DNA of 64,000 bases from Owenia fusiformis. Lineage: Eukaryota; Annelida; Polychaeta; Sabellida; Oweniidae. The DNA lies in the NCBI GenBank assembly GCA_903813345.2, contig CAIIXF020000002.1, forward strand, positions 1,960,001-2,024,000, written 5' to 3'. The notes beneath the pieces are model-generated. The model ran no database searches. It worked only from the letters and a program-made list of their open reading frames with translations, and was not told the DNA's origin. Positions within the stretch are counted from its first letter, which is position 1. Every line of letters starts with the position of its first letter. The translations under genes and the position numbers were made by a program. Positions 251 to 54,490 of this stretch are shown piece after piece.

Positions 251-680
251 ATAAATGATAAACTTAAGAATGTGAATTTTGTTTTCATAAAGAGCTGATG
301 GATAATGAATAAATAGATAAATCTACAAACAAATGAGAATGTTACTGTATTAAGTGGTAATTTTGCCTAATCATTTAATTTGCCTATTGCCTGATATTTG
401 CCAGGTTCTGAAAATAAATGTCGGAAATATTATATAATTCATAATGTTATCAAATTGGAAGTTTCTTGCCATTAGGAAAATTGAAATTAGGAAAATTATA
501 ACATTTGACCACTCGGCAAATTAACCACTTTGATTAGATTATACTTTATACATAAATGAAACACTCGTTTTAATTGTCTTTATCAGCTGAAAAATGGAGC
601 ACTTATCACTTCATCGGGGAAACTAGAAAAGTAATGTCTATTTTTCGAAATAACACTGTTAATGTGCCGCTAAAGCTTCC

Positions 681-855
681 TGGTCAACTCAACCCCAAGT
701 CAACTCAACCCAAGTCAACTCAACCCTTAGTCAAGTCGACCCCAAGTCAAGTCGACCATTAGTCAAGTCGACCCCAAGTCATCTCGACCCTTAGTCAACT
801 CGACCCCAAGTCATCTCAACCCTTGGTCAACTCAACCCTTAGTCAAGTCGACCCA
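681..855. repeat. Left minisatellite arm of foldback copy 1
   Basis: Eleven 15-16-bp units. The variable five-base word after (G)TC reads, from the terminus inward: AACTC x3, AAGTC x3, ATCTC, AACTC, ATCTC, AACTC, AAGTC. The linker alternates between CCCCAAG and CCCTTAG types. Confidence 0.88.
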
Positions 856-1564
856 AATGATTTTAATTGTTTTAAGTAGATTAAAATACAATATAATCCC
901 ATTGTTTGTGCAGTTTGATTTGAAATCAAACTTCAAAGAAAAAAACATTTCTGCCACCTATAGATCAAAACGAAGATTTGAAATGGATCATAAAATCCCA
1001 ATCTGATTGTTTATGACACCTGACATATGAGTAAGATAATGGAAATTGTAAAATCATAAATCCCATTGTTTGTTCAGTCTTGTTTTAAAATCTAGATTAA
1101 AAAAAATAAACATTTCTATCGCCTATAGATCAGAAGGAAGATTTGAACTATATCATATTGTTTCTTGTTTATTATTATTATCAAAATATAAAATCATTCA
1201 ATACAAAGTAATGGATGGATGTTGGCACAATGCACATGTTGCATAAGTTACCTGTTGTCAAAAATACTGTTGCAACAATTTCGGTATAACAGAAAAGTGT
1301 ATAGATAATTTTTTTATTTCAGAGAGATAAAACAAGCTCAAATATGAAGGGGTGAAATATATGTATAGCATCGTGAATAGCCCTATTAAGATTAATCAAA
1401 TATTATTTTGGTAAATAAATGTCATATTTATAAAAATTATAACTGTGTTAAGCACTTCAATAGTTGATAATTTTATTTTGGAAAATTAGCATTTTAGTCC
1501 CTCATTCTTTCAAAATTCATCAATATAATACCATGAAAATAGTATATCTATTTGTTTTTTATGG

Positions 1565-1740
1565 TGGGGTCGAGTTGACTAAGGGTTGAGATGACCAAGG
1601 GTTGAGATGACTTGGGGTCGAGTTGACTAAGGGTCGAGATGACTTGGGGTCGACTTGACTAAGGGTCGACTTGTCTTGGGGTCGACTTGACTAAGGGTCG
1701 AGTTGACTTTGGTTGAGTTGACTTGGGGTTGAGTTGACCA
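1565..1740. repeat. Right minisatellite arm of foldback copy 1
   Basis: Inverted counterpart. Words from the right terminus inward: AACTC x3, AAGTC x3, ATCTC, AACTC, ATCTC, ATCTC, AACTC. The first nine match the left arm in order. Confidence 0.88.
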
Positions 1741-1835
1741 GTTACCCCGCTAAATATCCCCGAGAGCAATACACCCCTTTTTTAAATGTACTGATTGATG
1801 TTAAACATATTTTAGAGGAATACGAGGGTTGCTAA

Positions 1836-6739: not shown

Positions 6740-7230
6740 CACCCCAGTCACATTTGTCGCACGGAGGCCGTGCGTCGACCGCAGATCAATCAAATCAGTG
6801 AATTTCTGCGGCAAGCGTAGGAAAACTACGCTCGCCTTTTGGCCTCCGCACGGCGTATCCAGTTTTTTACAGGTTGCAGGGTCGCCGTCGAAATTATAAC
6901 TCGGAGTTATAATATTGGTTCATTTCTGAGGTCCCCGTAGAAATCAACTGGCTCAACAAGATTGAATCATTATTTGTCAATGTTTCACGATCACTTTTCA
7001 TTTGATATTACATCCTAGCACTATGGATAACATTTATAAATTGTCCTGATGTAAATAAAATGAAAAAAAGAATTATTTATCAACAGAAATTTAAAATTCA
7101 CCGTGCGGCTGCCGTGGGAAATGTGACTGCAAAAGTATGAGAGCGCAGAACTTCTACGACGAGCGTAGAAAAGCTACTGGCCGCAGAAATGATAGACCGC
7201 ACGGCGGCCGTGGGAAATGTGACTGAGGTG
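6740..7230. mobile_element. Harbinger-like MITE with TTA target duplication
   Basis: Ends are CACCCCAGTCACATTT and, inverted, CACCTCAGTCACATTT, flanked by TTA on both sides (6737-6739, 7231-7233). The subterminal GC-rich part (GCACGG..CCGTGCG, CCGCAGA) is itself palindromic and contrasts with the AT-rich surroundings. There is no coding capacity. A 3-bp TTA duplication is characteristic of PIF/Harbinger, so the class is inferred from that. Confidence 0.75.
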
Positions 7231-7239
7231 TTAGGTCTT

Positions 7240-9000
7240 GGTGTTTCCATTTTAAAATAATTTCAATTGAAATATATTTTATTTTCAAGTTTAAAAACAC
7301 GAGCCAGTAAAAAGAAATAAAAAAATCCAAGGGATATTCTCATGAATATTAGTCATAAGCGAAGCTGTATATCATCCTCTCCAAGTATGCCAAATTTCAG
7401 CCTACTAAACCGAGGGGAGGGGTCAACCTTTAAACAAGCCTCTAATTTCAATTTCTTTCTCGCCCAAAAGGCGTTGAGGTCACTGGTCAGAAGAAGGAGA
7501 AAGTAGCGACTGTGACCTCGACATTCTAAATTGCGGATGGCAAGTGTAAATTTCACTAGTTTTTCATCGCATTAAACTAGATTTTGCCATGGACATCAAA
7601 CTTTTGAACTCTAAAAAGTTTGTTTGACATAGACAATCCGCGATCCGATAATAGTTCATGTCATCGTGCCCTTGTTTGGTATAATATATTGGTTTGAAGT
7701 GGCGTCAACGCACAATATATGAAACAATTTATCACGTTGAGAGTTACACAAAATCATTTTACACTATTCAAACTGTTGTCAATAGCTCTATGGTAACATT
7801 GACGTCAGTTCATCAATAAAGTAATTTTGTCCTTACGCAATTCTTCACCCTTTCCCCAAAGAACGTTTCAACAAATAAATTAAAAAAGTATCACGGTGGC
7901 TCAGAATGTCAAACATTCTTCACGCATTACCCTCGTTTTCGAATGCACCATGCTAGAGTTGTAATTAGACTAGAATCCAATGTCGAACACTTGTTTCGGA
8001 ATTTTTATTTTCATTTATTTATCATTATCATTTACATTTGAAGTCAAACGTAGTGATACACAATCATATCTTACGACTCGAACTTTTTCTTTAAGAACTT
8101 CAAAACTGCACAAGGATGATTATGAAAACAATTATATAAATCAAACAATTTGTTGAGCACAACTTGAAAGAATATTTAGATGTGTAGCTGAATGATTTAA
8201 ATGTTAACTAACCAGGGTTTGTTGATAGATATTACGACAGTGCTTCGAATCCAATATGGCGTCACTACCTAGTAAAGTTATAGGTGGCGCAAAATCTGAG
8301 CTCTAAGACGTCTTAAATGTGATGGACAATGTAGCAGTAAGGATGCAAGCTGTCATCTTAATATGAAGAAGTTAAATTGAACATGTGTTATAAAAAGGGT
8401 TCCATCATTAAGATGCAAGACTGGACTATGAAATTAGTATTGGTGAAAAAACTAAATCCAAATGACCATGGAAAAGATCTCGAAATAACGATTGGTTTAT
8501 CTTTGCTGTTGATATACTTTTGGATACATTTTGAGACCCCCTTTTTTACATGAACATATATATATCAAAGGGTTTTCTTTCGCTTTACATTCTTTCAACT
8601 TAAATCGAAATCAGGGTAAACATCGTTTCCACGACGAGAATAGGCTTGATTGATAAACTCACTTCTTAAATAACAAAGAGTAGATCAAGTTGACGTTAAA
8701 AGAAGTAGCAATTTGTATTGAGTTTAACCATTGGGATTATGCTTAAACTGAAATTCGAACATGCCTGTATTTACGCCTTATATAAACTGTAAACAAAGTC
8801 AACATTTCACCCGGGGTATATTCGCGAACATTGTCCCTGGCAATACGTGTAATGTGTGACGTTCGGTCGTTCAGGGTACAGAAAACGTTTTTGCCTAGCC
8901 CTGTGGGGTGTATTAAGCGAATAGAATGAAATATTTGTTTTATTATACCATTGCTAGCTACAATCAATAAATTTCAAAGAAATAAATAATATTTGTTTTA
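7240..9000. other. Intergenic, nothing recognised
   Basis: AT-rich with only short chance frames (7353-7556, 8743-8967); no repeat structure stands out. Confidence 0.4.
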
Positions 9001-16000: not shown

Positions 16001-19000
16001 TCAAGTAATATGAATAATTATTGTTTCCAAATAATGCAGATGCGAGTAGGTAGTTACCAGTTTCACCACCAGGTGGCTCGTTCGGGTCAGATAGCATGGC
16101 GGATATAGCAGAAAGTTCCCTTTAACTTCAATTACATCTGTTTTAGTGGTTCAATTTTCATATAACCCTTATGTATCTAATCGTTATGCAAATCAAAATA
16201 TGTCCAGTGAATGAAAATGTTATCTGACCGATACGAGAAGAGATTTTACTTTTTGTGATTTTGTAACATGGGCCCTATGGAGAATCAACCCGAACTAGAA
16301 GTCACATTTTCAAAAATAATTAAATTTTCAAACTTGATAAACAATTTTCGAAACAATATTTCTAGATGTACTTTTACATGTAGATTTCAAATATAACATC
16401 GTTTTGAGTGAATTTTTGATATATAATGGCGTAAATTAAGTTTTTTTTCTACTCGCATCTAGTCTATTGTACCTGTGTCATCATCTGGAGCGCGTTTTCT
16501 ACTTTGTGAAATGTATTGATAAACAAAATCATCTTCCTCAATCGCGTTGTCATTTGCCGCATTGAGATGTCTTTTAACATGTCCCCCTGCAAAATCTTGA
16601 GTTACCTGTAATAGAAAACATACATTGGAGTCACATTGGGTTACCATAGTTATTATCATAAAATTGAAACGTCTGCTATTTGATTAGTGGAGATGAGCCC
16701 TGTAGTACTGAAATAGCGATAACTTATTTCAACCGCTTATTAGGGCAACAGAGAATATACTTGATAATATAAATACGATGTCTATTTTTGCAAGTCGTAA
16801 CTATTTTCTAAAAAATAAGTAAATTTACTACTACAGTGATACTTGGATTGATATGTACAGGGTGGTCCAAAAAAATGGGACACTCGTATTTCAAAAATAA
16901 ATATTGATTTTCTTGATGAAAACATGTCATATTATATACCAGTGGATAGGGAATTTACTTATCTTTAATTTGGTATATCATAAGTTCAAATTTATTATAA
17001 TTTCTGTCAACCAGCGTCCGTTATATAAATGACGTCATTTTAGTTTCAAAACGGGTTTTCCAAAACTTGCAAAAAACAAGTTTTTTGTCAACTTTATTTA
17101 CACAAACAGACGTTCGATATGTCCACCCTTTTGATCAATTATAGCCCTCAATTTTGGCCTAAACTGGTCAAAAACATCATTGATATTCTGTTGAGACAAT
17201 GAATTCCACTTCTCAACAAGTCTATCTTTAATAAGGGACAGAGTAGATGTAAGGGGTTCATGGTAAACCAATTCTGTAGGGTCCCCAATATGTGGAAGTC
17301 GCAGACGTTGACATCGCATTATCCAATTATGTTGTTTTTAGACCATCCTGATATGAGCTCATTCTCGAATCATTACATTTTCCAACAAGATGGGCCTCCA
17401 AGCATTAGATCTCACAAGAGTGTCAAATGTTTAAAGGAAAATGTTCCTAGATTCATCCCCCCAATCGGTGCCTCCCTCAGACCCGATCACACGATCACCA
17501 AACGTCTGCGACTACCACGTATGGGGAGAACTAACAGAACTCGTGTACCATGAATCCTTTACATCTATTCAGTCTCATGAGGACAGAATTGAATTAATGA
17601 GAAGTGAAATTATTTGTCTTAACAGCATATCAATGATGCTATTGGCCAGTTTAGGCCAAAATTGAGGGGTACAATTGATCAAAATGGTGGACATATTGAA
17701 CGTCTTTTTATGTAAATAAAGTTGACCATAAAACTTGTTTTTGCAAGTTTTGGAAACCCCGTTTTGAAATGAAAATGACGTCATTTATATTATGGACGCT
17801 GGTTGACAGACATTATAATTAATTTGAACTTATGTTATACCAAATTAAAGATCAGTAAATTCCCTATCCACTGGTATATAATATGACATGTTTTCATCAA
17901 GAAAATCAATATTTATTTTTGAAATACGAGTGTCCCATTTTTTCGGACCACCCTGTATATATTGATGAAATTTACTTGACCTTAAATGATGATTTTACAG
18001 CTTCCTTCACATTAAACAAATCCCCGGGAATCCATTGTAAAAATGGAAAGTTCAGTGTAATTGAATCAGCTCCACCCCGTGCAAGAATGTTATTACACTC
18101 TGCCAGGAACTTCTGGAACATCACATCGCTGTATTCGTGCCTTTGTCCAAATACGATAGATGAGATTACATTAGAGACAGCGTTATTGATATTTGGGCCT
18201 ATATCAAACGATTTTCCCAGCGACTGATGGATGGCTGCTTCTAAATGAATCATCTCCTCTTGGATCTTCTCTTCAACTAATGGCTTACCCATTCCAAGAT
18301 CTCTGAAGGTGGATAAGGCCAGCCGCCGACGTTGCTTCCATTTCTCGCCTTGGCTACTGACGATACCTTGAAAAACATTATTTTATAACGGTTGTACATA
18401 TGGTGGTTTGAATCAAAAATGTGGGTTAAACCATCGAAACGGATTATAATGGTTTCTAGACAACTCATCCCAAGACAAGTCATCCCTAAGATAACTCATC
18501 CCAAGACAAGTCATCCCCAAGACAACTCATCCCAAGACATCTCATCCCAAGACATCTCATCCCAAGACAACTCATTCCAAGACATCTCATCCCAAGACAT
18601 CTCATCCCAAGACAACTCATCCCACTTGTATAATTGATAAATTATTTTGTCCTCTATATTATATATATCCCTTTTTCATTTTTATGATTACAAAGTGAAT
18701 TTTGATTACACACTCAAATTTTAATACTGATTTTTAGCATTTTGAAATGGCACTTGAAAGTTATGTTTTACTTGTAAGTACTGCCGCTACTTTGATGAAT
18801 TCTGGGTTATTCTAAATATATTTGAGAATATAGGATTGAACATAAAAGTCATAGACATTATTTCCAAAATTAATCATCATAAATCTGAAAGTTTGAAATT
18901 GGCAATCTTATTTAGGATTAAGCCAAAATATTTTAACAACAAATACTGAATTAATCTGAGAGAATTATTCTGATAGCACCTTGGATAATACATTCTAACT

Positions 19001-22000
19001 GACGAGTTAATCCTACACCTTTGATGATCTTTGATTTAATATCAAAGTATATATTAAATTTGAACATGTTTATCTTTATCCCAATCAGTCAACAAAAATT
19101 AACTAAAAATAGGCTAACTAACTACAAAATACAAAAATATTAAGTAAATATTGTCAGTTTTAAAATACAGCATGAAAAATGTATTAATAAAAAACAAAGA
19201 TATTCCACGACCATTGTGCTAACTGCTAAAATCTCTAAATATTTTTCATTCTTTCAAAATGAAAATTAATTGTATAAAAGTATGTTTTATTTCAAGTTGA
19301 GAAGAGTTGTCTTGGGGATGAGTTGTCTTGGGATGAGATGTCTTGGGATGAGATGTCTTGGGATGAGTTGTCTTGGGATGAGATGTCTTGGGATGAGATG
19401 TCTTGGGATGAGTTGTCTTGGGATGAGATGTCTTAGGGATGACTTGCCTTAGGGATGACTTGTCTTGGGATGAGTTGTCTTAGGAATGAGTTGTCCTGTT
19501 ACCATTATAATCCTTGACAGAATGTCACGTTTAAATTGTATCGCATACACAAATATCACTTGGGGAGAAATTGTGGGTAGAATTGCTAAAATTGCAAAAA
19601 ACGTCATCATCAAAATGCGGGAAAACATGTTACAAACGCCGACGACGAAAGCCGACATCGGCGACACCGAACGCAGGTAAAAAAACTAAGCTAAGACGAT
19701 ATGTTACCGCTTTTTGAATGTTACAAGAAAACATATAGAGGTACAAAGATTGGAATGTTTATAGAGACTTTTCTGCCTGAAATCGTTTAAATTTAATTTA
19801 ATTTTTTGCGCTCATCCATTACGGTTATATATCATGTTATTATAAAAGATGTACAGGTAGTTGGACGATCTCGTTTGAAAAAAATTAAATTCATGTACTT
19901 TAAAAACTAGTTTACCCGTTCGTGTTATGAACAATGCGTTACCTGGGTTTTATCTAAAAAATGTTTCAAGTTAAATAAATATGAATGAATAAAGTAAAAT
20001 TAGTTATTGAGAAAAGGCAGTGTAGCATATGTGATTTACAGGTTCATATTTTTAGCTTGGTATACCCGTTGAGAAATATTCTTAAAGTGTTGAAGACTTC
20101 AAAATAGAAAAATCGTTAATTGATGGTTTAAACCATGATATAAATGCAATCGTTATGATATGAATATCATAATGTACAAAGCGAGCTGACTTTCCTACAG
20201 TTTAAACCCCACTAAAGTAGTAACAAAATAAAATGAGCTGCACATAGTCTATTTTAAAGAATGTACGAATGTTTCAAAAACAAAGTACATCTTTCTGTTG
20301 AAAATGTGTGACCTCGCAATTTGCACCGCATGGCTAATTGTTCTTTTCGTAATTTCCGGAAATATAACTTATTTGATATTACATAATCCACTTGCTCCGC
20401 GGTCACACAAAATACAACCACCGTACCAGGCAATGGCAGGCATGTTACATACGGTGCACTGGAGCTGAACTAACTCACACAAAATACAACCACCGTACCA
20501 GGCAATGGTAGGCATGTTACATACGGTGCACTGGAGCTGAACTAACTCACACAAAATACAACCACCGTACCAGGCAATAGTAGGCATGTTACATACAGTG
20601 CATTGGAGCTGAACTATTAATACAACCACTGTACCAGGCAATGGCAGGCATGTTACATACGGTGCACTGGAGCTGAACTAACTCACACAAAATACAACCA
20701 CCGTACCAGGCAATGGTAGGCATGTTACATACGGTGCACTGGAGCTGAACTAACTCACACAAAATACAACCACCGTACCAGGCAATGGTAGGCATGTTAC
20801 ATACAGTGCACTGGAGCTGAACTTATTCACACAAAATACAACCACCGTACCAGGCAATGGTAGGCATGTTACATACGGTGCACTGGAGCTGAACTAACTC
20901 ACACAAAATACAACCACCGTACCAGGCAATGGTAGGCATGTTACATACAGTGCACTGGAGCTGAACTCATTCACACAAAATACAACCACCGTACCAGGCA
21001 ATGGTAGGCATGTTACATACGGTGCACTGGAGCTGAACTAACTCACACAAAATACGAGGGGTGATCCAAAAGTCTTGGACGCCCCGCTCTAACTTTGCTA
21101 TTTTCTAATATAATTGCACGATAATTGCACGATAATAAAGATCAACATCTTAACAACTTTGTGTATAAGTTTCAACAGAAAATAATATATTTTAGCTTTT
21201 TGGTAAAGATTTTTTAACACTGGGTCCCTGCCACCCGGAACGGTATTTAAATATAGCAAATCACGTCACAACTGTTATAATATGGCAAATACTTTAGGTG
21301 CGGGTGCACAACCTAACACCAGTCATGATATGAGAGAATTTTCGATTTTCAATCTGAGTGTCAACTGCCATCATCATCTTCACATATTAAGATCCACTTT
21401 TCAACATTTTTTCCACGAATTTGAACCCATCTTTCATACCGCTTTAATTTACCAATGAATGGAAGACATTTATGAAACCGCCATTCCTTATGTGATACAA
21501 ATGCTGCTGGAGTGCCACTCTAAACCTCATCTAATGAGTAAAAAAACATTTTCTTTCAACCCTTCTTTCAACTTCGAGAAAAGGAAAAAAATCACACGGA
21601 GCCATATCTAGACTGTATTGTGCATATGGTAGCTGCTAAAGGTCAATAATAGTGAAAATATATTGTAGTATTCTTTGTTCCACTTTGATTTCTTTCATGA
21701 TCTGCATTTCAGTAGCCATTTTGGAGCAAAAATGATACCAGAATGAGGGTTGCTTGTCTGATGTCACTTTCTTAGAACTTGACATATATGATCATTGTCA
21801 TATGTGACATTATAATGAAAACACAATTAATTGGTTGCCTAGTAAGAAAGGAAGTAAACTAACATGGTTTAACATTCACAATTCAAAGAAAGACAGTGGT
21901 CAAGACTTGCGAAACAAGTCAAATGTCGGCAACATTTAAGGCTGAAAGTTGTCATGTGTGAATACCGTTCCGGGTGGCAGGGTCCCCATCTTAAAAACTG

Positions 22001-24999
22001 TCTAGAAAACTACATAAACATTATCATTTCTCCATGAAATTTATACACAAAGTAGTTAGGTTGTTGGTCTTTATTATTGGAAAGTTTAAAGTGATTTTAT
22101 CAAAAACCAACAAAATTAGAGCAGGGCATCCAAGACTTTTGGATCACCCCTCGTACAACCACCGTACCAGGCAATGGTAGGCATGTTACATACAGTGCAC
22201 TGGAGCTGAACTCATTCACACAAAATACAACCACCGTATCAGGCAATGGTAGGCATGTTACATACGGTGCACTGGAGCTGAACTAACTCACACAAAATAC
22301 AACCACCGTACCAGGCAATGGTAGGCATGTTACATACAGTGCACTGGAGCTGAACTAATTCACACAAAATACAACCACCGTACCAGGCAATGGCAGGCAT
22401 GTTACATACGGTGCACTGGAGCTGAACTAACTCACACAAAATACAACCACCGTACCAGGCAATGGTAGGCATGTTACATACGGTGCACTGGAGCTGAACT
22501 AACTCACACAAAATACAACCACCGTACCAGGCAATGGTGGGCATGTTACATACAGTGCACTGGAGCTGAACTAACTCACACAAAATACAACCACCGTACC
22601 AGGCAATGGCAGGCATGTTACATGCAGTGCACTGGAGCTGAACTAACTCACACAAAATACACCCACCGTACCAGCCAATGGCAGGCATGTTACATGCAGT
22701 GCACTGGAGCTGAACTAACTCACACAAAATACACCCACCGTACCAGCCAATGGCAGGCATGTTACATACAGTGCACCAGCCAATGGCAGGCATGTTACAT
22801 ACAGTGCACTGGAGCTGAACTAACTCACACAAAATACACACATCGTACCAGCCAATGGCAGGCATGTAACATACAGTGCAATGGAGCTGAACTAACTCAC
22901 TATCTTACATTAATCAACTCACAATACCTCCAGTTGAATAGTCAATACTAGAGGTGTCAAGTATTAACCGGTTAACCGGTTAACCGCCGATAATGCCTTG
23001 ACCGGTCTGTGTTTTTATGGGCGGTTAGTTGACCGTGTATAATTCTGTTATTTCCCGCGCTTATTTTGCATGCTAATCCGTTTGGTTTTATGGTGTCAGT
23101 TTCACGTAAGCTACTCATACATGTCATAAGTCCTATAACTCCTTACAAACATCCAATCAGCAACTTTAATCCCTGCCACATTGCTTTCCCGCGCTTACTT
23201 TGCATTTTAATCTGTTTGTTTTTCAAGCGTCAGTTTCATGTGAGCTACTCATACATGTGATAAGTCCGATAATTCCTTACAAACATTCAATCAGCAACTT
23301 TAATGCCTGCCACATTGCTTTCCCGCGCTTACTTACATAGAATAGAGTAAAGCTTGACGCACGTAAAAATAAACGCCGATATATCATTTTTCCAATTTTT
23401 TTCAACTTTCAAGGTCGAAGATGAAGATTTCATTTGAAATTATCAGTTCAAATTTCCCGCCGGTTAACCGACTTTAACCGGTAAAAACCCCCGGTTAACC
23501 GGTTAATGCTCAAACGGTTAATTGACACCACTAGTCAATACAGAGGAGATTTAATTTTCCAGATTAGATCATGGACCATATACCTTTCAAAAGGGTCAGT
23601 GCGGGGTTTCAATTAGATAAACAATTCGACATGGGTCTTGGGAAAATGATAGCCTCGGGCCTATCGGCTCCTGGCTGTCATCTGGCCTAATACCATAGAC
23701 GAATTTGTATTCATTACCTAATGTTATTGTAAATACGTATTGCGTAATCATCAAATGGATTCCAGCGGATATTCTCAACATATCTCCCAATTTCTCCTTT
23801 CACATATTTTCCGGCTAATGAAATATTTTGGGGCTTCTACTAATCAACCCGAAAACCCTCTATATTTCCAAATTAGAATATGTTCAATCTTAACCAAAGA
23901 AAATTTTGAATAATTAGAAAAACTAAGTACAATTAATAATCCGTATTACTACTGACAGGTCGCATCAAGTTACACCATTGCAATGGCATGTTCAGATGTA
24001 TTTGAAACTACTGACCTCAGCTTGGACCCTGCTATTTTTAAGCAGTGCTCGACACTAGTGTGATTACTTTTTGACAGGGTTCTGATTTCTAAAGTTATCA
24101 TGTTATCCCTTCTCTTGTTCTAAAGGAGGCCAACAAGGGTGTACTTGAGACCTAAGTAGCTTTGCCAGAGAAAAAAATACACTCAAGGTTTATATATTAA
24201 AGATAAGTAAGTACTATTGAAGTTGTTAATCCATTTGTGAACCAACCCCAATGTTTTCATTGTTAAATACTGTTTGTACCGATTAAGCCTGTGACTAGAA
24301 ACGGTGTATATTTATGTAAATACACGCAGAGTCTACTTAGTGCTTTTGCCATGATAAGATTTAACTCTTCAAATTATGTTTATTATCGGAATGCAATGCT
24401 TCAGATGCAAACATTGAAATCACGCCTATGGTTGTACATTTTCTTGTTTCAATACTAATAATGCCCCAGTCACATTTTGTTCTACAAAATCTCCCAAAAT
24501 TGAGAGACATGCAGCATAAAATATAGTACATAGGGATAAGCAGAGCAGTACAATGTCGATTTTCTATATATCGATTTTGTAAAGCTACGGCCACACGGAA
24601 CGCTCGCCGTAGGGCAAACGCGACTGAGGCTAACTTACCGTACTTGGTCCAGCCCAACATGTCTCCTATGAAGGTCGTTACCCTCCCAGAATACACATCT
24701 TGGTGAAGTAATTCTTTCATTGCCTCATAACTATTCAGAACAATAGTAGTTCTACCCATTAACTGTACAGAAATTATGTCAGTGTTGTAACCGTGTTTCT
24801 CAGCCCATTCAGCAAGAATCTTCGCCGGGTCTTTTCCCAACATAAACGGTATACTTCCTATGATAGGCAGCCTAGGCGGCCCTGGGGGTAGATTTAGTCC
24901 AGTTATGTAGTGTCTTAAAAACAGAAGAAACACAGCTAACAAGACAAGACAAGTTATAGTATTTAATCCAAAAATGTCCATCGTGGTTTCAACAGCCAT
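12845..24999 (-). CDS. Cytochrome P450, CYP2-like, complete seven-exon gene (498 aa)
   Basis: Haem-thiolate monooxygenase, expected to be anchored in the endoplasmic reticulum and supplied with electrons by P450 reductase; the substrate cannot be read from sequence. Exons in transcript order: 24999-24639, 18366-17981, 16605-16473, 15446-15331, 14801-14618, 13598-13461, 13023-12845. All junctions are GT-AG and phases agree (1,0,1,0,1,1); the total is 1497 nt. Visible signatures: hydrophobic anchor at about residues 9-32, proline hinge [10 protein letters not shown]-helix WKQRR (130-134), I-helix AGTETT (307-312), K-helix EVQR (364-367), DPSRF (418-422), and the haem loop FGIGKRVCLG with Cys444 as thiolate ligand. 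The loop is split by the last intron at its second glycine. The length and the pattern of conserved blocks match the CYP2 clan. Introns carry many mobile elements: intron 1 is 6.3 kb, and intron 2 is mostly a foldback transposon. The one ambiguous junction is the acceptor of exon 4: 15446 keeps phase and gives TENVLM, while a nearer AG at 15474 does not. Confidence 0.92.
13461..13598 (-). CDS. P450 exon 6 (meander, PxRF)
   Basis: Begins by completing Gly394, then [14 protein letters not shown]. It carries FDPSRFL (the PERF-type element) and ends PFGI plus the first base of Gly440 at donor gtaagt, so the intron falls inside the haem-binding loop. Confidence 0.9.
13644..14377. mobile_element. 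MITE in P450 intron 5, 734 bp, TA target site
   Basis: Terminal GGGAGGTTAAGATTAGCGTA is repeated inverted at the right end; TA flanks both ends (13642-13643, 14378-14379). Subterminal CCTATACGTA-type motifs occur in both arms. Non-coding. Confidence 0.7.
14618..14801 (-). CDS. P450 exon 5 (K helix, ExxR)
   Basis: Begins [10 protein letters not shown] and contains EVQR, the K-helix ExxR salt-bridge motif. It ends ...RGYHLPK plus one base of Gly394 at donor gtgatc. Confidence 0.9.
15331..15446 (-). CDS. P450 exon 4 (I helix)
   Basis: With acceptor gtttcag it gives (E)[18 protein letters not shown] and ends ...YPDIQTR at donor gtaata. AGTETT is the oxygen-activation motif of the I helix. The alternative acceptor at 15474 would add 28 nt and break the phase with exon 3. 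Confidence 0.85.
15588..15990. repeat. 400-bp foldback in P450 intron 3
   Basis: Two long arms pair: the TTACA(T/C)TGCTTCAAAG region, then the stretch around GAAAAATATAT(C/T)CATATTGC and ACACGAATGACATTTGTATA. The loop lies near 15785. The arms are about 170 bp each with moderate divergence. No clear target duplication was found. Confidence 0.65.
16473..16605 (-). CDS. P450 exon 3 (H-helix region)
   Basis: Acceptor ...ttacag, then V-T-Q-D-F; reads to ...RKRAPDDDT plus one base, donor gtacaa. Acidic, with the DFVYQYI segment that corresponds to the DFI(D) element before the I helix in CYP2 proteins. Confidence 0.82.
17098..17319 (-). pseudogene. Transposase C-terminal fragment (left arm of foldback)
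   Basis: A 73-aa frame containing [20 protein letters not shown] and ending GGHIERLFV, which mirrors the right-arm sequence. The N-terminal catalytic part is absent. Confidence 0.7.
17341..17715 (+). pseudogene. Transposase C-terminal fragment (right arm of foldback), frameshifted
   Basis: Starts within the domain carrying QQDGPPS (the region of the second catalytic Asp in DDE Tc1/mariner enzymes), then frameshifts before the segment around [15 protein letters not shown]. The final part again ends GGHIERLF. Not functional as it stands. Confidence 0.68.
17981..18366 (-). CDS. P450 exon 2 (C-helix WxxxR to F/G region)
   Basis: Completes Gly121 and continues [14 protein letters not shown], giving the C-helix WxxxR that binds a haem propionate. 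The 386-nt exon reads through to ...[12 protein letters not shown] and ends in phase 0 at the donor gtcaag. It covers a stretch that is often split by an intron in vertebrate CYP2 genes. Confidence 0.9.
18451..19503. mobile_element. Foldback element with word-ordered minisatellite arms, 8-bp TSD (copy 2), in P450 intron 1
   Basis: Flanked by ATTATAAT at 18443-18450 and 19504-19511 (perfect 8 bp; itself palindromic). Termini GGTTTCTAGACAACTC and, inverted, GGTAACAGGACAACTC match those of the copy at 675-1746. Arms are 15-16-bp units ATCCCAAGACAACTC (left about 18458-18635, right about 19303-19497). The same three words AACTC, AAGTC and ATCTC recur. The middle is AT-rich and non-coding, and shares short matches such as CATTCTTTCAAAAT with the first copy. 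Confidence 0.85.
20400..21054. repeat. 72-bp minisatellite array, left block
   Basis: About nine units with landmarks CACACAAAATACAACCACCG, TACCAGGCAATGG(T/C)AGGCATG and GCACTGGAGCTGAACTAACT, with a period of 72 bp. The block is continuous in phase with 22154-22900 if the intervening transposon is removed. It lies in P450 intron 1. Confidence 0.92.
21055..22153. mobile_element. Mariner-like element inserted into the 72-bp array, 1099 bp
   Basis: Ends CGAGGGGTGATCCAAAAGTC are inverted. TA at 21053-21054 and 22154-22155 is the duplicated target: the array unit reads AAAATACAACC, and the insertion splits it as AAAATA / TACAACC. A decayed minus-strand coding segment around 21360-21500 (e.g. [20 protein letters not shown]) resembles the C-terminal tail of a mariner-family transposase. 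Subterminal CCCTGCCACCCGGAACGGTA is also inverted in the other arm. Confidence 0.85.
22154..22900. repeat. 72-bp minisatellite array, right block
   Basis: About ten units, with a shorter variant near 22770-22800 where part of a unit is duplicated. Units near the right end drift (ACACCCACCG, CAGCCAATGG). Because 72 is a multiple of three, long open frames with a 24-residue period appear on both strands; they are not evidence of a gene. Confidence 0.92.
22949..23533. mobile_element. hAT-like MITE, 585 bp, 8-bp TSD
   Basis: Perfect GTCAATAC duplication at 22941-22948 and 23534-23541. Ends TAGAGGTGTCAA and, inverted, TAGTGGTGTCAA fit hAT termini. Just inside lie clusters of AACCGGTTAACCGG. The middle holds a tandem duplication of about 130 bp (about 23055-23335) with the landmark TACTCATACATGT and ATCAGCAACTTTAAT. 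Non-coding. Confidence 0.82.
24463..24630. mobile_element. Short Harbinger-like MITE relative at the P450 exon 1 donor
   Basis: Left GCCCCAGTCACATTTTG and inverted right GCCTCAGTCGCGTTTGC match the termini of the element at 6740-7230. TAA lies beside each end. The right end is 6 bases from the intron-1 donor (gt at 24637-24638). Confidence 0.6.
24639..24999 (-). CDS. P450 exon 1 (membrane anchor and proline hinge)
   Basis: Codes for residues 1-120 and the first base of codon 121. It begins [10 protein letters not shown]; a second in-frame Met at residue 7 is an alternative start. A leucine-rich transmembrane helix precedes [13 protein letters not shown]. It ends ...GWTKYG with the donor gtaagt directly after the first base of the Gly codon. 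Translation continues open past the donor by chance into a MITE that begins 8 bases away. Confidence 0.9.
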
Positions 25000-43504: not shown

Positions 43505-43585
43505 ACGACTATATACACATATAATAATTGACTCATGGAAACATGCTCTTTATATATCATACAACAAACCCGGATCAGGTTGATA

Positions 43586-43945
43586 CTTTTTTGAGGATAT
43601 AAGATGTTGCCAGGAACGTTGAGTACTCTTGGCAGAGTGTATGTCGTATCACTACTATATTCTGGGCGTCAGTGTTTATAATTACTTTGAAATATGATGT
43701 GATCATTTTTTGAGGATATAAGATGTTGCCTTGAACATTGTATACTCTTGCCAAAGTGTATGTCGTATCACCACTACATTCTGGGCGTCAGTGTTTATAA
43801 TTACTTGAAATATGATGTGATAATTTTTTGAGGATATAAGATGTTGCATTGGACATTGTATACTCTTGCCAAAGTGTATGTCGTTTCACTACTATATTCT
43901 GGGCGTCAGTGTTTATAATTACTTTGAAATATGATGTGATAATTG
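43586..43945. repeat. Tandem repeat, about 118 bp x3
   Basis: Units start near 43592, 43711 and 43829, with landmark TTTTTGAGGATATAAGATGT and CTGGGCGTCAGTGTTTATAA. The copies differ by a few bases. Confidence 0.9.
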
Positions 43946-45150: not shown

Positions 45151-45596
45151 AATTTGCTATAAATATTCCTAAGAGATATTTTAATTGATTATTCTACAAA
45201 GTTTCATGCCAATTGATAAAACTATGGTGATATTATAATAAAATCAGGTTGAAGAGTTGGGGTAGGGTGAGGGGTTATTTGTCAAGTCAAAATAAATAAA
45301 AATTGAAAATATGAAATAATTCATCAACAAATACCATTTCGAGTAGCTATAAAAAGTATACTTAATATATTTTAAAATGCTAAAAAAAGTACAAAGATTC
45401 TTATAATACTTATCATAAATTGACATTTTTCCAAATTTACTATTTAGCGGCATAATACATTTAAGGCTAGGCTTGTTCGAATTCTAAAGCCACGTTGTGC
45501 AAGAGCTTGGGAGCAATAAACCCTCGGATATATATCAACTAACCATGACGTTAGCTATCAACAACAAAGCAAATTGAGAGAATACAAAATCCAATA

Positions 45597-45924
45597 CATA
45601 TATTAACACCCCTATGCTATACAAATATAAAAAATCCAATATATGGTTGCCTAGTTTTATGAGAGTCGTGCATGGAAGACGCGATTAAGGGTTTGGTTTT
45701 ATGATACGTATATTAACACCCCTATTCTATACAAATATAAAAAATCCAATATATGATTGCCTAGTTTTATGAGAGTCGTGCATGGAAGACGTGATTAAGG
45801 GTTTGGTTTTATGATACGTATATTAACACCCCTATTCTATACAAATATAAAAAATCCAATATATGATTGCCTAGTTTTATGAGAGTCGTGCATGGAAGAC
45901 GCGATTAAGGGTTTGGTTTTATGA
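45597..45924. repeat. Tandem repeat, 110 bp x3
   Basis: Units start near 45601, 45711 and 45821; landmarks TATTAACACCCCTAT and GAGAGTCGTGCATGGAAGAC. Copies are nearly identical, so the expansion is recent. Confidence 0.92.
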
Positions 45925-53535: not shown

Positions 53536-54490
53536 CAACACAATTTTGCACAAATCAACACAAAACACAATCAGACAGAACCAAATGGAATACCAAAACA
53601 CCCAACCAACACTCTCTGAAAACAACACCAATCACACAACACAGTCTATCTCAACCAGATACCTCATCCTACCGGGCACAACCCGCTACTCGACCAGCAC
53701 AACACAATCACAACATAACACAGCCAATTTGAAATTTACATAGCTTAATGAGACACAACCCGATACCAAACTTACACAGCCCAACCAGGCTCAACCATAC
53801 AAGCAACCACCAAAACACAATCGACTAACAAACTAACTCAATCGAGCACAACCAATAAACAAAGCAACAAAACAATGCCAACGAGACGACCACCTCTCTG
53901 GAAACAACACCAATCACACAACGCAATCTGACACAACTAGATACCTCATCCTACTGGGCACAACCCGCTACTCGACCAGCACAACACAATCACAACATAA
54001 CACAACCTATTTGAAGTTTACATAACTTAATGAGACACAACCTGATAACAAACTAACACAGCCCAACTAGGCGCAACCATACAAACAACCACCAAAACAC
54101 AATCGACTATCGAACTAACACAATCAAGCACAACCAAACAACAAACCAGCACAACAAAGCCAACGAGACGACCACTCTCTGGAAACAACACCAATCACAC
54201 AACGCAATCTGACACAACCAGAAACCTCATCCTACTGGACACAACCCGCTACTCGACCAGCACAACATAATCACAACATAACACAACTACTTTGAAATTA
54301 ACATGACTTAATGAGAAACAACTACCAAACTTACACAACACAACCAGGCTCAACCAGACAAACAAGAACTAAAACACAATCGACTATCAAATTAACACAC
54401 ATCACCAATCACACAACACAATCTGACATAATCAGAAACCTCATCCTACTGGGCACAACCCGCTACTCGACCAGCACAACACGTTTAGGT
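53536..54490. repeat. C/A-rich tandem sequence, about 290-bp period x3-4
   Basis: The + strand is almost G-poor and T-poor. Recurrent blocks AACAACACCAATCACACAAC, CTCATCCTACTGGGCACAAC, CCGCTACTCGACCAGCACAA and CCAACGAGACGACCA repeat with a period near 290 bp; the last is shortened. Confidence 0.85.

Follow-up and report, generated by a model that had tools for sequence, protein, structure and literature searches.

Word order in the inverted arrays of a non-autonomous MULE foldback family of Owenia fusiformis is a family signature

The element at positions 675-1746 of the window (the whole 64,000-nucleotide stretch of Owenia fusiformis DNA that was analysed) is a mobile foldback transposon. 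It is a non-autonomous MULE member; very probably its arms carry an order of repeat units inherited from one source in a recent burst, and its ends would be bound by a transposase that it does not itself encode. The order of three short sequence words along the arms is a family signature that almost every copy carries; the two arms of one copy agree in it no better than arms of different copies.

Structure of the foldback element

The element, a member of what is here called family A, is 1,072 bp long (675-1746, + strand) and is flanked by exact 8-bp target-site duplications with the sequence CCGCTAAA (667-674 and 1747-1754, both +), the limits being exactly those given in an initial annotation of the window. 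The left terminal hexamer is GCTTCC (675-680, +) and the right one GGTAAC (1741-1746, - strand). Because these hexamers differ, the single terminus pattern proposed in that annotation, GGTAAC(T/A)GG(T/A)CAACTC, describes the right end and fails at the left. Each arm is 175 nt long and consists of 11 units of 15-16 bp (left arm 680-854, +; right arm 1567-1741, -); the arms are 97% complementary, and folding of the element as single-strand DNA pairs them in one long stem. The internal region spans 855-1566 (+), and the longest ATG-, GTG- or TTG-initiated frame lying wholly within the element is 58 aa.

Units were taken in register, in 15-16-bp steps, and coded by the word that they carry: C for CAACTC, G for CAAGTC and T for CATCTC. 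The left arm reads CCCGGGTCTCG and the right arm, read from the right end, CCCGGGTCTTC, words 1-9 being identical as in the mirrored series first described. When the words of both arms were shuffled, the first nine agreed in a fraction of 0.00012 of 200,000 trials, a value that reflects arm relatedness only, because the arms of one inverted repeat are homologous and not independent.

Copy number and mobility

With the element as query against the host genome (498 Mb, 525 contigs), at least 40 family A loci were recovered, these being the best 40 of 584 candidates; several are partial, and L038 and L039 are apparently one element on two contigs, L039 being left out as the duplicate in the copy counts for outer-arm divergence, word distance and diagnostic sites. 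A second element in the window, 1,053 bp long (18451-19503, +), with units GACAACTCATCCCAA, ends GGTTTC and GGTAAC and the duplication ATTATAAT (18443-18450 and 19504-19511), defined a comparison family, family B, for which a genome search with this element led to 38 fetched loci; the candidates at C7:27484950 and C7:36204995 were left out of this set.

Duplications were surveyed at 80 loci (40 of family A, 38 of family B, L079 and L080). Exact duplications at recognised ends were present at 54 of them, 8 bp long at 47 and 9 bp long at 7, and their sequences vary from locus to locus; a ninth base matching by chance may account for some of the 9-bp duplications. Among the remaining 26 loci, 18 were without a recognised end and 8 had both ends and no matching duplication; possible duplications at shifted ends that a looser rule would accept (e.g. 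at L042 and L049) were excluded from the count. GGTAAC was found at both ends of L079 only, among the 54 loci with duplications. The locus L080 (G000:C3:3294800-3297150) has ends of the type GGTAACCGG with inner inverted word arrays, and is apparently nested or composite.

The simple 16-bp arrays called by Tandem Repeats Finder are what an ordinary minisatellite pair without mobility would present, a possibility that the initial annotation had itself raised. Exact duplications, differing in sequence, at 54 of 80 loci refute this explanation, to which we attach practically no probability.

An exact search of the host genome found GGTAACNGGNCAACTC at 468 places, whereas its reversed control matched once. 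The 100 places listed out of the 468 included 43 termini on contig C1, up to position 46,973,784; 40 of these were fetched as stretches of 1,451 bp each, sampled in list order and not randomly, the other three lying already within L079 and L055. Owing to the length of the stretches, the far end and a duplication were recovered for just 17 of the 40. Opposite GGTAAC, these 17 elements end in GCTTCC (11), GGTTTC (5) or GGCTTA (1), and in no case in GGTAAC (0 of 17).

Linkers vary by family (AACCC, ATCCC, GTACCC, GGACCC), the CAACTC core and the 15-16-bp spacing being common to the word-bearing families. A short family with the unit GTCAACTCGTACCCAA, 624-724 bp long and with few readable units per arm, was also seen on contig C1 (L091, L103, L106-L108 and L121). 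Elsewhere in the window, one 72-bp unit makes up two separate arrays about 1.1 kb apart (20403-21055 and 22154-22880), and further tandem arrays lie at 43581-43944 (119-bp unit), 45594-45924 (110-bp unit) and 53610-54404 (282-bp unit).

Word order within and between copies

Extraction of copies genome-wide and comparison with shuffled arrays, as the initial annotation had proposed, showed that word order is strongly kept in family A: the mean word edit distance between copies was 0.71 for left arms (35 arms) and 0.57 for right arms (34 arms), compared with 5.20 and 5.37 in the shuffled control. With damaged units allowed, the order is kept in 59 of the 71 arms with a readable terminus, and letter for letter in 43 of the 71. 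This conservation is due to the youth of the copies (mean pairwise interior divergence 3.6%, 40 loci), which inherit the order from a recent common ancestor. Unit gains and losses are present in L011, L023, L027 and L037.

Interior divergence is 9.6% in family B, where the distances between copies were 2.96 and 2.65 versus 4.99 and 4.84 after shuffling. Slippage is free in this family: L041-L047 lie 1-3% from the majority interior, yet vary in unit number and order, bearing out in general the statement that slippage normally scrambles such arrays. The arms agreed over nine words in 22 of 31 family A copies versus 0 of 28 family B copies, so that random order without arm agreement, which the initial annotation had set against its own reading, does not describe family A, and the lack of arm agreement does hold for family B. 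Family B has unlike, end-specific orders at its two ends; its arms are closer to each other than shuffles (4.82 versus 5.81 edits, the lowest of 300 shuffles being 5.36). Mirrored order as a general rule was rejected on the family B count and on the sibling elements described below, whose arms mismatch at 1-3 of nine words.

The outermost unit carries the C word in all 69 family A arms and in 62 of 65 family B arms, despite C word shares of 0.46 and 0.56 of all words, respectively, which fits a stronger constraint at the tips and, equally, plain descent. These tips are among the observations that would favour the three words being graded, position-coded transposase-binding sites, with an order kept by selection on source elements, as would the end-specific orders of family B, the constancy of CAACTC while linkers differ between families, and two of four cross-family comparisons, in which the strings were nearer to each other than shuffled ones (uncorrected P 0.011 and 0.039), the other two not being so (0.41 and 0.195). 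However, orders differ between families, the two arms of the transposase-bearing element L088 are unlike, and common descent alone yields conservation within, and partly between, families; moreover, one or two base changes separate the words, and point mutation can therefore make them. Graded sites thus appear unlikely, and we are equally doubtful of a related proposal in which the words form an end-specific address, with outer units held to CAACTC and an inner order that distinguishes the ends and is selected in source elements. Inheritance from one recent source is the reading that we prefer.

Exchange between arms

Ongoing copying between the arms of each genomic copy would also keep their orders matched. 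A trace of what it predicts is present, since 5 of the 110 changed sites in the outer arms are common to both arms of a copy, and outer arm differences per site are slightly fewer within a copy than between copies (0.0217 vs 0.0234; permutation P 0.006). The other 105 changes are confined to one arm, however, and the left-right word distance in family A is equal within a copy, L(i)-R(i), and between copies, L(i)-R(j) (2.39 vs 2.41). Sites diagnostic between the arms point the same way: six were used, the last three columns at the inner array boundary being excluded because they are partly an alignment effect, and the opposite arm's state at all three inner sites was found in 0 of the 73 family A arms having all three, and at one inner site in the right arms of L009 and L011. 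Copy-by-copy exchange as the cause of arm agreement was rejected on the private changes, the word distances and the diagnostic sites, and we rate it as very improbable compared with descent from a common source.

In L015, L016, L017 and L019, the terminal hexamers are swapped relative to the interior and one left-arm variant is present in both arms; the swapped hexamers are a trace of arm-to-arm recombination. Four of the five shared outer changes fall in these copies, which form one subgroup, and the fifth in L038. The hexamer swap and the shared changes therefore indicate that the arms do exchange sequence, rarely, and the earlier suggestion that the arms were copied from one another holds for this subgroup and not copy by copy.

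For the ancestor of family A, sibling elements were compared. The arm consensuses of family A differ at 2 of 170 sites, and over the same columns the arms of the siblings L134, L135 and L136 differ at 10 of 165, 8 of 163 and 6 of 170 sites, respectively, a contrast that is small because single family A copies cover a similar range (3-13 differences over some 175 sites in 32 copies, with a median of 5.5). Among the first nine words, the arms mismatch at one in L134, one in L135, three in L136 and two in L138, and at none in the A-type L133 and L140; the arms of L130 and L138 are one unit out of register. The GGTAAC arms of L134, L135 and L137 have, for readable units, the order CCCGGGTCTT as in family A, and the GCTTCC arms of the siblings are variable (CCCCGG..., CCGGGG..., CCCCCG...). 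Copying of the GGTAAC arm onto the GCTTCC side in the family A ancestor would fit; the linker of unit 7 points in the opposite direction. The comparison thus weakly suggests that, at the ancestral level, exchange between arms may have helped to make those of the family A source alike.

Transposase-bearing relatives

The Pfam MULE domain (PF10551) has eight matches in the host genome; five of these loci were fetched, those on contigs C9, C3 and C10 being left out, and five further loci were fetched through a transposase protein search, in which those of the 33 matches lying inside L081-L090 were examined. MULE transposase sequence is present in five relatives that match in end layout and have 8-bp duplications, and the frame is open in three of these. 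The first, L081, is 4,895 bp long, has the ends GGTAACCGGACAACTC and GGTTTCCGGACAACTC, the duplication GTTTGAAA and arrays reading CCCCTCC and CCCTCC, and contains a 599-aa open frame. L082 and L083 have GTCAACTCGGACCCTA and GTTAACTCGGACCCTA arrays, duplications recognised by eye (GTACATAG and GTTAATTT) and 617-aa open frames. L087 and L088 are built like L081, with the duplications GTATATGC and TAGTCTAG and transposase matches that are in pieces or interrupted. Inverted 16-bp arrays flank both sides in these five loci and in L089, where no duplication was seen; L085 and L086 showed no word array within the stretch fetched.

The end layout of the group comprises a 6-bp terminal motif, which normally differs from one end to the other, followed by a short spacer and tandem 15-16-bp units. 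Judged by this layout and by coding sequence, the element at 675-1746 is a non-autonomous member of a MULE group of which transposase-bearing members with the same end layout are present in the genome.

A Pfam scan placed PF10551 above the cut-off in the transposases P0001 (from L082), P0002 and P0003 (from L081), and the FLYWCH domain (PF04500) above the cut-off in P0001 and P0003, FLYWCH not being listed for P0002. A PHD finger in P0001 scored below the Pfam cut-off (19.2 vs 24 bits), and P0003 matches Pygopus PHD chains (E 0.0008). D330, D397 and E514 (P0003 numbering), together with a CxxH motif, are conserved in all five long frames, and the three acidic residues are the presumptive catalytic triad. 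An origin from P-type elements such as Galileo was rejected, the scan of the three transposases having returned MULE, FLYWCH and PHD only and no THAP domain.

A closer link to family A is provided by L090, which is 1,349 bp long, has the duplication ATTTTATT, the family A termini GGTAACTGG and GCTTCCTGG and a GCTTCC-side arm reading CCCGGCTCTCG. A stretch of 212 bp on its GCTTCC side is 98-99% identical to many family A copies, and it codes for a piece of transposase with 62% identity to P0003 over residues 418-597, features by which L090 is recognised as a deleted transposase-bearing relative. Of the autonomous copy with the same ends that the initial annotation had proposed to seek, both termini and a transposase fragment occur together in L090; an intact autonomous element with exactly the ends of family A was not found in searches that scored the best candidates only.

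The locus L084 contains a MULE lying between inverted 15-bp arrays (2937-2983 and 6936-7251) of an unrelated unit, CTTCCCATTTCGCCC, alike in spacing to the word-bearing units and different in sequence. A closely similar 31-bp minisatellite is present at three MULE loci (L086, 4958-5205; L088, 2082-2574; L089, 2293-2570), and recalls the minisatellites listed for Phantom and Rehavkus.

The traits of the MULE superfamily found here are the MULE domain of the relatives, duplications in the 8-11-bp range, and ends shared with the transposase-bearing, though not intact, L090. Those of the Phantom/Muta subclass are the N-terminal FLYWCH of P0001 and P0003 and the short subterminal tandem repeats within the terminal inverted repeat (TIR).

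Relation to known elements

The sea urchin Strongylocentrotus purpuratus has TU elements, which are flanked by 8-bp duplications and whose foldback ends contain repeats of about 15 bp in their outer domain. A 1983 paper on TU elements is cited in the available text of PMC4079207. The layout found here, for which the initial annotation knew of no described family, has already been published for Muta1 and Muta5 and for Tm1. In Aedes aegypti, the 145-bp TIR of Muta1 combines a terminal motif of 10 bp with nine 12-bp repeats set 3-4 bp apart, and that of Muta5 has an 8-bp terminal motif and nine copies of a 15-bp repeat; TIR repeats occur in 10 of 12 long-TIR families, 13 of 14 families have a FLYWCH finger, there are derivatives whose interiors are foreign, and Muta1 is mobile in yeast (PMC5225508). 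Muta1 and Muta5 resemble the Owenia elements in 8-9-bp duplications, a 15-16-bp period (Muta1) and the FLYWCH domain, a likeness in described layout; a putative PHD-like finger also precedes FLYWCH here, unlike in the Muta families as described in the available text (PMC5225508).

Tm1 of root-knot nematodes (Meloidogyne), of the Phantom subclass, has unlike 7-bp end motifs, a 3-bp motif B and 1-9 consecutive 13-15-bp repeats; most members are MITE-like, with a rare transposase-bearing copy, and one element has the same motif at both ends (PMC3169594). The likeness lies in the unlike end motifs, the tandem repeats and the mostly non-autonomous membership, whereas in Tm1 the duplications are mostly 9 bp long, a GA-rich motif is present in addition, the repeats have a different sequence and the arms are 93% identical on average (PMC3169594). 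Its available text does not discuss the word order of the arms. Rehavkus, listed from Arthropoda and Annelida, has a PHD finger, a TIR of 26-400 bp and a minisatellite, and differs in its 9-bp duplications and in the absence of FLYWCH from its row in the available table (PMC6446971). An analysis of word order was not found in the available text of the literature searched on such elements, and no claim of first publication is made.

Discussion

A MULE transposase supplied from elsewhere would use its N-terminal zinc finger or fingers to bind the G(A/T)CAACTC core of the repeats, pair the ends, excise the element and reinsert it, duplicating 8-9 bp of the target. A recent burst would have multiplied a single source array, one that slippage has yet to erode. 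That the repeated core is a transposase-binding site is probable by analogy with Muta1 and with Galileo of Drosophila, in which internal repeats of the foldback arms are bound by the THAP domain of the transposase (PMC3688188); Galileo is a working analogue by its arm repeats and differs in belonging to the P-element superfamily.

The apparent order and mirroring of this tandem array thus reflect, mostly through ordinary causes, a young family derived from one source with similar arms. In 2013 the purpose of repeated end sites was called untested for Foldback and Phantom elements (PMC3688188). Families that have a common spacing and core, unlike linkers and orders, and open transposase frames make Owenia fusiformis a good system for testing the repeated sites of MULEs.
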